DNA from: a virus
Strand: one strand, 5' to 3'
DNA: 31,944 nt
Virus record (IMG/VR): IMGVR_UViG_3300023181_000066
Location: 1-31,944 of that record
This document shows positions 2,543 to 8,127 of the stretch, piece after piece. Under the pieces are notes generated by a model. That model worked only from the letters and a program-made list of their open reading frames with translations, did no database searches and had not been told where the DNA came from. Position numbers and translations under genes: made by a program. Numbering within the stretch: the first letter of the stretch is position 1; each line of letters opens with the position of its first letter.

Positions 2543-3709
2543 TTACACTAAATTAGATTCACATATATTATAAACGGAAACACACCCAGCAGCTCCGCCC
2601 AAAAAATCTGTTTGATTTGGATTTGCCAAAACATACTTTGCAACATCTTTAATTGTTGGAACTTTTACACGCCTAATGATGTATTCGTTTTCATCATCAT
2701 CTAAATACACAGGTATTTTATCATTTTTAAAATACATGTTGTATAATCTTTCCTCAGGATTTATTGGTTTTTCTGAATCAACAAAAACGCTGGTTTGATC
2801 TTTATTTATTTTTTTAGAAACTTTACCTCCGAATAAAGGAATTAAATCTTCTCTGTAAACTTTAACCTCAGCCGTTTTAGTGCAATACCTGGCGGGTATG
2901 TATAGAGGAGGAAAAAATGTTGAGTTTGCCAATTGCTCTAACTTATAGATTTGCTCAATCTTTTCAGGCTCATGCGTTGCAATCATCCTAATTTCTGAAA
3001 GCCTGCACATAATACAAGGGAAACAACCAACCCTCGACATGCCAGCGCGGTAAAGGGGGTTCCCAGGAGAATCATTTTCAAAAATGATATTAAAAACCTC
3101 ATTATGACTTAATTTTAAAATAGGTCTATAAACTGTTACATCATATTTTTCTAAATGGGCTAAAACATCAGCCTTTCGATAAGTATGAAATTTTGGTTTA
3201 CCTTTTTTATCATACCCATACGGTTCCAAATAAAATTTAAAATAATCATCACGAAATTTTAAATTGCGCCTCGCTTCTGATTCCTCTGCTCTAACACCTT
3301 GTATTATAATTAAATCATAATGACATTCATCTAAGATATAATCAATAACAGGTTTTACTTTTAGATCATCCGTACAAAAGCGGGCCTTTGTTGATGGGAA
3401 ACGGGTTCTATACATAATCATTTCAGCAAAAACATTTTCATAGCCGAAAATCTCAACTATTTGTTGCCTAATTTCATTACTTATTTTATCCTCAAAAAAT
3501 TTAGATCTAAGCTTTATAAATTTTTTACCAATTCTGCTTTCTAAATATTCTAAATGGCTATAAACATCTTTATGATCCCAATTTAAATCACTGAAAAGCA
3601 TATCCCAGCTATCAAAAGGTAAATTATGGTAGGCCCACCATGTTGCAGCCTCGGAATCTTTGCCCGTACTACTTAAAACTAAATGCCTAACTATATCGTT
3701 ATTGCTCAT
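2543..3709 (-). CDS. Phosphoadenosine phosphosulfate reductase family (PP-loop ATPase, DndC-like) protein
   Basis: A 388-residue protein with an N-terminal PP-loop SSTGKDS (residues 13-19), the family motif GVRAEES (138-144) and a FCTDDLKVKP segment (111-120) typical of PAPS reductase/DndC-type enzymes. C112, C229, C232 and C235 (the last three as CFPCIMC) could ligand an Fe-S cluster or zinc, and RYCT further on supplies another Cys. Members adenylate a substrate in sulfur transfer or reduction. In phages such genes often lie near DNA methyltransferases, as here, and a role in DNA modification or sulfur metabolism has been proposed for some; no DndD/E partner is seen. It is the third gene of the operon that starts at 4239. 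Confidence 0.88.
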   Translation of the reverse strand: MSNNDIVRHLVLSSTGKDSEAATWWAYHNLPFDSWDMLFSDLNWDHKDVYSHLEYLESRIGKKFIKLRSKFFEDKISNEIRQQIVEIFGYENVFAEMIMYRTRFPSTKARFCTDDLKVKPVIDYILDECHYDLIIIQGVRAEESEARRNLKFRDDYFKFYLEPYGYDKKGKPKFHTYRKADVLAHLEKYDVTVYRPILKLSHNEVFNIIFENDSPGNPLYRAGMSRVGCFPCIMCRLSEIRMIATHEPEKIEQIYKLEQLANSTFFPPLYIPARYCTKTAEVKVYREDLIPLFGGKVSKKINKDQTSVFVDSEKPINPEERLYNMYFKNDKIPVYLDDDENEYIIRRVKVPTIKDVAKYVLANPNQTDFLGGAAGCVSVYNICESNLV

Positions 3710-4773: not shown

Positions 4774-4980
4774 TTATTTTTGATCAAAATCATGCATACC
4801 TGGGGGCACCATGTAAGCAAATGCCTCATTATACTCAAATGGGCATTCAGGATCAAATATAAAAACTCTCGAACCCCATATAATAACATCAGGCATTGGT
4901 TTAAAATCAGGCACCGTTGCATTTGCAACAAAATGAGTTCCCGTTTTTGTTTTAACTTTTAGTTTTACTTTTACAAACAT
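4774..4980 (-). CDS. Hypothetical protein, 68 aa
   Basis: Not recognised. 68 residues, beginning MFVKVKLKVKTKTGTHFVAN; the alternating pattern suggests a small beta-barrel or OB-like fold. It precedes the holin-like gene by 13 bp and probably forms a two-gene unit with it. A terminator-like hairpin lies just upstream (5003-5035). Confidence 0.65.
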   Translation of the reverse strand: MFVKVKLKVKTKTGTHFVANATVPDFKPMPDVIIWGSRVFIFDPECPFEYNEAFAYMVPPGMHDFDQK

Positions 4981-5002
4981 ATAATTGAATTTTTAGATAA
5001 TG

Positions 5003-5035
5003 AAAAAAAGCTTTCCCCATCCAGGCAAAAGCTTT
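5003..5035 (-). terminator. Terminator-like hairpin upstream of the 4980 gene
   Basis: On the minus strand an AAAGCTTTTGCC / GGGGAAAGCTTT hairpin is followed by a seven-T run. It could stop read-through from the RNA island, but it precedes a gene with no other obvious promoter, so it may act as an attenuator. Confidence 0.55.
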
Positions 5036-5070
5036 CGTTAAGATAAAAAAAATATAAAATAAAGTGCTTT

Positions 5071-5099
5071 AAAAATAGCGGGGGCCAATTACCCCCGCT
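5071..5099 (-). terminator. Strong intrinsic terminator closing the RNA island
   Basis: AGCGGGGG/CCCCCGCT (8 bp, 7-nt loop) followed on the minus strand by ATTTTT. It is the most GC-rich hairpin in the neighbourhood and ends the gene-free stretch that contains the tRNA. Confidence 0.85.
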
Positions 5100-5324
5100 T
5101 TACTTAATCCATAGCTTTTCAAATCTATCTCACATTGCCCCGCCAGCCTTTTGCGTATTTGCCACGTTTTGCAGGTGCTCAGCTCGCACCCCTCATTGGC
5201 CCTCTGTCTATATGGTTATCGCTATTAAAGCCAAAATCAAGTTTGTTGTACACCAAACTATCATTTTTTAGCTTTCAGATTTTTCGCCTACTCATTCGAG
5301 ATACTAAATACTGATAAAAAACTG

Positions 5325-5395
5325 AGTTCCCTAATGGATTCGAACCATTGGTAAAAGTTTTGCAGACTTTTGCATTGCCACTTTGCTAAAGGAAC
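5325..5395 (-). tRNA. tRNA-Cys (anticodon GCA)
   Basis: Minus-strand cloverleaf of 71 nt: acceptor GTTCCTT / AGGGAAC with one G-U pair; a short D arm GCA...TGC containing AGTGGCAA; anticodon stem AAAGT/ACTTT with loop CTGCAAA (U33, anticodon GCA); T arm AATGG-TTCGAAT-CCATT. The discriminator base is U73, the expected identity base for Cys. CCA is not encoded. The weak, three-pair D stem is typical of phage tRNAs. It is the only complete tRNA found in the window. Confidence 0.93.
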
Positions 5396-5602
5396 AATTT
5401 TAAGTTTTTAAAGAAAACGGCGCTGATCTTTTGAATCAGCAACCGTTTACCATCTAAATTAACGCTCTCACCTAAAATCCCCGCAACGAATTAACGAGGC
5501 GGGGCGTTTAGTGTTTTACCGCAAGCAAAACCTTTAATATTTTAGGGTTTTAAGTTCGCAACCCTTAGCGCATTTCAAAGGTGCAAATTAAATAATTCAA
5601 AT

Positions 5603-5630
5603 CAAAATTATATTGCAAATTATTTTCAAA
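5603..5630 (-). promoter_or_regulatory. Candidate promoter of the RNA island
   Basis: On the minus strand TTTG (5630-5627) is followed by TAATTTTG (5610-5603), a perfect TAnnTTTG -7 box, though the 16-bp spacing is shorter than usual. TAnnTTTG occurs often by chance in DNA this AT-rich, so support is weak. The 5600-5712 stretch otherwise shows nothing recognisable. Confidence 0.3.
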
Positions 5631-5712
5631 GTTTTTATCAATAACACAACAACTGATTGATTATCAGATAAATAATTTTCATTTATTCCTTTTAATCACA
5701 TAACCGTCACAT

Positions 5713-5745
5713 AAAAAAACCCTGATATTTTTAGGTATCAGGGTT
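5713..5745 (-). terminator. Intrinsic terminator after the KTSC gene
   Basis: AACCCTGATA/TATCAGGGTT (10 bp, 8-nt loop) followed on the minus strand by a seven-T run. It ends the tail-fibre operon about 85 bp after the KTSC stop codon. Confidence 0.88.
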
Positions 5746-5830
5746 TAACAAAATGAAAAAAGTTAAAATCAACATGCTATTTCACAACCGCATATCCTTA
5801 AAGAGTAATGTCAGAACTCAAATATATAAT

Positions 5831-6136
5831 TTATTCCTCAATTGGTATGAAAATTAAATCATCTATTTTTTTGAAATCAAATTTTTTCATTACTCGAGCA
5901 TGAATAAATGAGCCTACGCTTTCAGCTTTCATGATATCCTGCAAAACCTCCTCATCAACATTTGAATATAAATACTGAGATAATTTACTGCCTTTAAACT
6001 TTACAAAAAGCTCTTTTGTTTTTTGGTTTATAGCAATGCTTTCAACATTTTTACTCTCAGGACTTTCTTTAATTTTAAATCCTGATAAAGTTTCGTTTAA
6101 ATGATGGGGTTTACCCATATAATTAATATTCTGCAT
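5831..6136 (-). CDS. KTSC domain protein
   Basis: 101 residues. From about residue 28 to 92 it follows the KTSC domain pattern: S-(x)-I-A-I-(x)-(x)-K-T-K-E-L-F-V-K-F, then an aromatic YLYSNV turn, and a C-terminal AESVGSFIHARVMKKF resembling the family's A-x-S-x-G-x-(F/Y) ending. The domain takes its name from a lysyl-tRNA synthetase fusion and is common as a stand-alone phage or bacterial protein of unknown role. It is the last gene of the fibre operon, just before a terminator. Confidence 0.75.
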   Translation of the reverse strand: MQNINYMGKPHHLNETLSGFKIKESPESKNVESIAINQKTKELFVKFKGSKLSQYLYSNVDEEVLQDIMKAESVGSFIHARVMKKFDFKKIDDLIFIPIEE

Positions 6137-7542: not shown

Positions 7543-8127
7543 TTATTCGTATTCTCTTAATATTAAAGCTGAAATAATTGCATAAATAGCACCTGGGGCA
7601 CAATCAACAACCATTGTTAAAGTAGTAACACCCGTAATTTTATCGAAAAGCTGAATATAAGGCACATTTGCTGTAGATAATAGCAGCTGTTTAGTAACTC
7701 CGTTAATTGTTACATTCGTTTTATTTTCGCCCGCTGGATCATCATAATACAAAACCCCGACTTTTGGCTCATAATATTTTGCGGCATTTAGGCCCGTAAT
7801 GGTAATTGTTTTTGTTCTGCCTCCGTTATATGTATAAACAACACCTGCAAGGGCAGTAACAGAGAAATCCCCATCAGGAGAGGCAACATTACCAGGGTAG
7901 CTGTCAACATCCCAATCATCGCCTGAAACACTTATATAAAAATTAGTTAAAGCACCTGTAAAATTTGATAATTGAATATTGCTAAAACTTTGATCAATCG
8001 TATTCCAATTAGTATCAGTTCTAAAAGCACCATCAGCAGTAAACATAATTTTTACGGTTTGCAACAAAGTTGTGCCCCCTGCAGAAACTTTACCTAAAGC
8101 CTGAAACATTGCCCGCCTTAAACTCAT
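7543..8127 (-). CDS. Putative fibre-associated beta-sandwich protein, 194 aa
   Basis: 194 residues, Thr/Gly/Val-rich and beta-strand dominated, with stretches such as GAFRTDTNWNTIDQSF and TKTITITGLNAAKYYEPKVG typical of carbohydrate-binding jelly rolls. No family can be named. It lies one base from the upstream 8128 gene in the fibre cluster, so a virion or receptor-binding role is inferred from place and composition. Confidence 0.7.
   Translation of the reverse strand: MSLRRAMFQALGKVSAGGTTLLQTVKIMFTADGAFRTDTNWNTIDQSFSNIQLSNFTGALTNFYISVSGDDWDVDSYPGNVASPDGDFSVTALAGVVYTYNGGRTKTITITGLNAAKYYEPKVGVLYYDDPAGENKTNVTINGVTKQLLLSTANVPYIQLFDKITGVTTLTMVVDCAPGAIYAIISALILREYE

Follow-up and report, generated by a model that had tools for sequence, protein, structure and literature searches.

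A phage-borne member of a Pedobacter small RNA family in a gene-free island beside tRNA-Cys

The minus strand of the viral record IMGVR_UViG_3300023181_000066 carries, at 5406-5469, a phage-borne member of a paralogous small RNA (sRNA) family of Pedobacter and related Sphingobacteriaceae, as judged from its sequence and from its match to a structure model of the host copies. The predicted family is multicopy in Pedobacter and has no match in Rfam, and its 18-nt motif appears, by sequence, to be carried recurrently by phages of unrelated type. The best explanation, which we consider likely, is that the phage expresses a seed mimic of this host family. The window, that is, the whole stretch of DNA that was analysed, comprises 31,944 nucleotides, with an SPP1-type portal and a terminase. 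It also encodes an auxiliary protein with a PAPS-reductase domain (PF01507) at 2543-3709 (-).

The copy lies in a gap in which the ORF list and the sequence reveal no plausible gene. This gap measures 850 bp (4981-5830) and is flanked by a gene at 4774-4980 and a KTSC-domain gene at 5831-6136. The first-pass annotation had described a 500-bp island as the only non-coding stretch above 300 bp; the ORF list of the window indeed holds no second gap of more than 300 bp, and the true extent of the island exceeds the stated size. On the minus strand, the terminator search places an intrinsic terminator of the operon of the upstream KTSC gene at 5717-5746 (z -3.2). It is followed by a putative sigmaABfr-type promoter (5576-5606) and by a hairpin, P1 (5472-5511), whose 3' edge lies 2 nt ahead of the conserved motif (z -3.97 for the 48-nt upstream segment). 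The motif itself, GAGAGCGTTAATTTAGAT, is an 18-nt single-stranded stretch and putative seed at 5452-5469. Directly behind it stands a terminator hairpin, P2 (5412-5451, z -4.5, within the structure-model match), with another terminator-like site inside it (5421-5441) and a T-rich tract on its 3' side (5406-5411), where the model match ends. The compound hairpin at 5415-5448, previously judged unlike a terminator, corresponds to P2: its stem is followed by TTTTCTTT, and it is homologous to the terminator hairpins of the host sRNAs. The single canonical tRNA-Cys and the strong terminator reported earlier were both recovered, the former at 5324-5395 (anticodon gca; ARAGORN, and Rfam tRNA with 62.1 bits), the latter at 5077-5099, closing the unit.

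Folding of the minus strand across 5071-5600 is better than in 100 of 100 dinucleotide shuffles (z -3.1; plus strand z -1.7), in agreement with its earlier description as hairpin-rich. However, the signal is local. In 90-nt windows, z-scores of -2.1 to -2.8 are reached only across 5380-5550, with a second peak (-2.1 to -3.2) at the terminator of 5717-5746. For the long hairpin at 5227-5275 the value is about -1.1, and no above-chance structure is present across 5100-5320, the downstream half of the island. A short ORF in this hairpin region (5208-5264, minus strand) would encode an 18-aa hydrophobic peptide, MIVWCTTNLILALIAITI, possibly by chance.

These results bear on the original proposal of a single structured non-coding RNA of about 500 nt, ribozyme-like or resembling GOLLD or ROOL. 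The z-score of the complete minus-strand stretch speaks for such a molecule, and a promoter and the final terminator do enclose about 500 nt. Against it, Rfam yields only the tRNA in the window (for GOLLD, a 21-nt match that scores 9.8 bits, the gathering threshold being 150; for ROOL, none), and the structure is confined locally. Moreover, in a comparison of the motif flanks across phage contigs, from 300 nt upstream to 500 nt downstream of the motif, the upstream half and the sRNA had relatives and the stretch after the tRNA-Cys (5100-5320) had none. A 500-nt RNA is hence highly improbable; what stands of the proposal is that the island probably makes non-coding RNA, part of it absent from Rfam, the new part being a predicted small RNA with its conserved single strand between two hairpins and a tRNA-Cys behind them. 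The absence of a tmRNA, RNase P or group I/II intron consensus, noted before by inspection, agrees with the Rfam and ARAGORN models, which give no match to any of these in the window, and Rfam rules out a large ornate RNA or a tmRNA there. A degenerate tRNA array was also considered, because of a visual resemblance of the motif to a tRNA D-arm, and was dismissed, no second tRNA being found. DNA similarity of the island to known phages is limited to short chance-level matches, the best at the tRNA.

The sRNA copy, on the contrary, has clear relatives. In phage L002, the product of the neighbouring 455-aa gene is 75% identical over the best segment, and this phage shares with the island one short stretch, GAGCGTTAATTT, followed by a hairpin with different letters and the same layout. 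A scan of viral contigs with the shared motif gave a match in the microvirus L017, and a scan of genome contigs with GNGAGCGTTAATTTNGANGGT found 110 places, of which nearly all belong to Pedobacter. Motif matches in L015, L016 and L018-L024 were discarded as chance, since the hairpin is absent and the flanking motif bases differ. A covariance model, R1, was then built from 29 Pedobacter chromosomal copies, with no phage sequence included. It matches the window at 5406-5469 (-) with 54.5 bits (E 2.9e-13), L017 with 39.7 bits (E 4e-10) and L002 with 25.1 bits (E 3.5e-5), the E-values of these covariance models being rough. A structure-model search was one of the checks suggested for the island, and related phages do show the RNA. 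The window is identical to the Pedobacter glyA-locus consensus over the first 21 nt (5449-5469), and its hairpin differs. It has the 5' motif and the terminator hairpin of the family; a promoter whose predicted start is the first G of the motif, a common and non-defining feature, is missing. Motif and P2 together match no Rfam family (E<=10 for the window, E<=5 for L002).

In each family member, a near-invariant run of 18 nt at the 5' end leads into a terminator hairpin, and a Pedobacter genome holds roughly 3 to 15 or more copies. In six genomes, the core, searched with mismatches, gave hits without any in the reversed control (G005, 15; G009, 10; G010, 7; G008, 5; G006, 4; G011, 3); in a seventh, G007, 4 hits stand against 2 in the control. 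R1 gives up to 19 hits at E<=1 in a single genome. Members were detected with R1 in 31 of 61 genomes of the bacterial family, a test that is not fully independent because the model contains the motif; irrespective of promoter, most strong members keep GAGAGCGTTAATTT or GAGAGCGTAAATTT. Across the class, only 4 of 295 genomes have the exact 18-mer, and all four are also in the family-level sample.

The best-conserved Pedobacter copy is flanked on one side by a lipoprotein or comF gene, which follows rlmN, and on the other by glyA or a neighbour, gene names that come from reading the translations. Gene order around it is the same across most Pedobacter species; in this set, the 18 nt are conserved partly because the search pattern demanded them, a dependence that is weaker for the mismatch counts of the core and for the R1 search. 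An ECF-like promoter (an AAAAC-type box, 16-17 nt, then CGTTTATAT) lies in the interval of about 52 bp from the upstream stop codon to the motif. It ends just ahead of the motif, and most columns of its -10 box are 90-100% conserved. Some host copies use TAnnTTTG promoters, likewise ending just ahead of the motif. In most host copies, the promoter ends at the first base of the motif (G), which would give small RNAs of about 55-66 nt. Covariation was another suggested check. The P2 hairpin covaries in the Pedobacter copies: 95% of the cells pair, 6 of 13 pairs change on both sides with pairing kept, and the score was reached by 0 of 500 shuffles. For P1, RNAalifold on the four closest phage sequences supports only two compensatory pairs. 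Beside the glyA-locus copy, the hosts L145 (1665) and L146 (1651) have paralogues with a shortened motif, GAGAGCGTTAATTTAAGGG. A hairpin resembling GCAAGGGGTGAGAGCCTTGC, common to the hosts L150 and L199 and the phage L433, sits before the motif instead of a promoter.

Besides the window, 30 IMG/VR contigs contain the exact 18-mer; with the window and L002, which has a variant motif, the records total 32. Seven proteins from seven of the motif-bearing contigs were scanned: four matched terminase, helicase or tail-measure families and two matched PHROG families of unknown function, while one had no hit. In the microvirus L017, the motif lies between the genes of a Phage_F capsid protein (E 5.6e-93) and of a replication protein. 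In L017, L413 and L430 alike, the motif occupies the gap that separates a capsid-sized gene from the gene after it, and TATATTTG lies a few bases upstream; among these three, Pfam confirmed Microviridae proteins for L017 alone. The window, L017 and the host have an identical motif and almost completely different P2 hairpins, which is what selection on the motif would produce.

Two layouts are found in the phages. In the first, promoter-like TATATTTG or TACCTT[TA] abuts the motif, and the 48 nt upstream are unstructured (in the nine flagged copies, z is -0.8 or higher). The second has a two-part hairpin, P1, which precedes the motif with a gap of 0-4 nt. P1 is strong in eleven copies (L408, L417, L418, L425-L429, L431, L435 and the window; z -2.1 to -5.5) and weaker in L415, L422, L424 and L436. 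Its stems remain paired despite differing letters, in a structure-by-structure comparison made without a single trusted alignment. L426 has a tandem arrangement at 2436-2515 (hairpin, motif, hairpin, motif, hairpin), of which the middle hairpin serves as P2 of the first motif and P1 of the second.

Linkage to tRNA genes is a further trait of the phage copies. The motif of the window starts 74 nt ahead of the tRNA-Cys; in L410, L422 (Ser, then Cys) and L424 (Cys) it starts 54-55 nt ahead of a tRNA, and in L423 it begins directly after a tRNA-Met. L415 and L436 look alike by eye, and no tRNA was called in either. The canonical tRNA-Cys of the island recalls the tRNA clusters of phages (Rfam RF00005), from which it differs in that an sRNA directly precedes the tRNA. 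In L410, a permuted tmRNA (RF04321; 52.4 bits, gathering 47) was matched at 7773-7993 (-), right after the tRNA and the sRNA. A weak tRNA hit in L003 (6611-6662), the 3' part of a tRNA by an integrase-like gene, is probably an attP copy of a host tRNA and unrelated.

The position of several copies directly before or after tRNAs, together with the terminal T-run of P2 in many phage copies, would suit an inherited cassette of terminator and pre-tRNA leader, in which the motif is kept by recent descent and has no function for the phage. We find this improbable, as unrelated phages keep the motif intact in front of P2 hairpins that are themselves unrelated, the microvirus of about 4.5 kb has its promoter exactly at the motif, and P2 of L425, L426 and L428 lacks a T-run.

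Under the favoured reading of a phage-expressed seed mimic, the copy would run off its own promoter, independently of the ECF-like promoters from which most host copies are transcribed. No promoter adjoins the motif in the window, and the ECF matrix of the host copies gives nothing convincing there; an ECF-type promoter seen by eye about 20 nt upstream was abandoned, being outside the top-scoring sites of this matrix. A promoter-like site is instead found about 110 nt upstream of the motif, with P1 in between: TTTG (5603-5606), 19 nt and CACCTTTG (5576-5583). L408, L427 and L429 have a homologous region upstream of P1, and these three and the window all keep TTTG, 18-19 nt and (T/C)ACCTTTG. 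The cassette of the window would hence read promoter, P1, motif, P2, tRNA-Cys, with a transcript start predicted near 5570. Most transcripts would end after P2, at a length of about 165 nt that trimming at the foot of P1 could reduce; transcription continuing past P2 would produce a pre-tRNA-Cys ending at 5077.

The motif is taken as a seed, and the phage RNA as a mimic, by analogy, because the layout matches that of FopS. Members of this Bacteroides family of paralogous sRNAs use their 5' single strand to pair close to the start codon of susC mRNAs, whose translation is thereby blocked; the protein RbpB antagonises the repression and binds the 5' part with low micromolar affinity (PMC11697453). 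Bacteroides thetaiotaomicron has 14 copies of FopS with sigmaABfr promoters, and also has GibS (PMC11697453, PMC7366714). A FopS sequence has been reported in one Caudovirales phage, merely as a hint of gene spread, and the Bacteroidota are without the classical sRNA chaperones of Pseudomonadota (PMC11697453). The present RNAs share with FopS the 5' single strand and Rho-independent terminator, the many paralogues per host genome, the occurrence in a phage and a putative sigmaABfr promoter. They differ in host order (Sphingobacteriales), in the ECF-like promoters of most copies, and in the phage copies, which often have a 5' hairpin and a tRNA linkage and in some cases belong to Microviridae. 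The likeness is one of layout, the R1/R1' seed of FopS being shown in figures only; identity of the window sRNA with FopS cannot be claimed.

By this analogy, the exposed motif would, by pairing, target those host (or phage) mRNAs that the host copies target, and block their translation. SusC mRNAs were dropped as a target class, since 30 SusC leaders showed no excess complementarity to the motif as a class. In P. deserti (2.4 Mb), there is a weak excess of complements near gene starts: the 40 nt ahead of the starts contain 16 complements of at least 9 nt, against 8.2 +- 2.8 in shuffled controls. The best of 100 shuffles gave 15 and the reversed control 6, and at 10 nt the seed sequence itself is also in excess. 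Two outer-membrane beta-barrel-like genes of P. deserti with 11-nt complement sites were rejected as targets, as the sites are not kept in relatives.

That no strong mRNA targets were found would also fit a protein decoy, in which the motif binds an RbpB-like RRM protein of the host and the phage RNA titrates this protein or gains stability, without pairing to mRNA. RbpB does bind the 5' part of FopS sRNAs in Bacteroides (PMC11697453), and 18 nt that stay near-invariant across paralogues with different hairpins suit a protein site. The 5' end of the host copies exactly at the motif suits a seed instead, and the affinity of RbpB for FopS is low micromolar only (PMC11697453). A decoy is therefore a rather unlikely alternative to the seed mimic.

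With that mimic, the virus probably plugs into a host regulatory RNA circuit. The LhrC, Qrr and OmrA/B sRNAs (PMC11697453) likewise form many seed-sharing copies with presumed overlapping targets, in unrelated hosts. As with the phage-encoded regulatory sRNAs reviewed in PMC12197685, a phage-derived small RNA would take part in the phage-host interaction; here, the motif is common to a host sRNA family and many phage contigs. More tentatively, phages of Pedobacter and its relatives, from tailed phages to Microviridae, may repeatedly have taken up the host seed to seize a regulon during infection, expressing it from phage promoters or releasing it beside tRNAs, for example to lower surface receptors.

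What makes these observations of interest is the family, with its many copies and its recurrence in unrelated phages: an sRNA family without Rfam match is newly defined, multicopy in a large environmental genus and common to many unrelated phage contigs. If the phage copies act as sRNAs, phages would carry mimics of a host regulatory RNA family, and the exploitation of Bacteroidota sRNA circuits by phages becomes directly testable.
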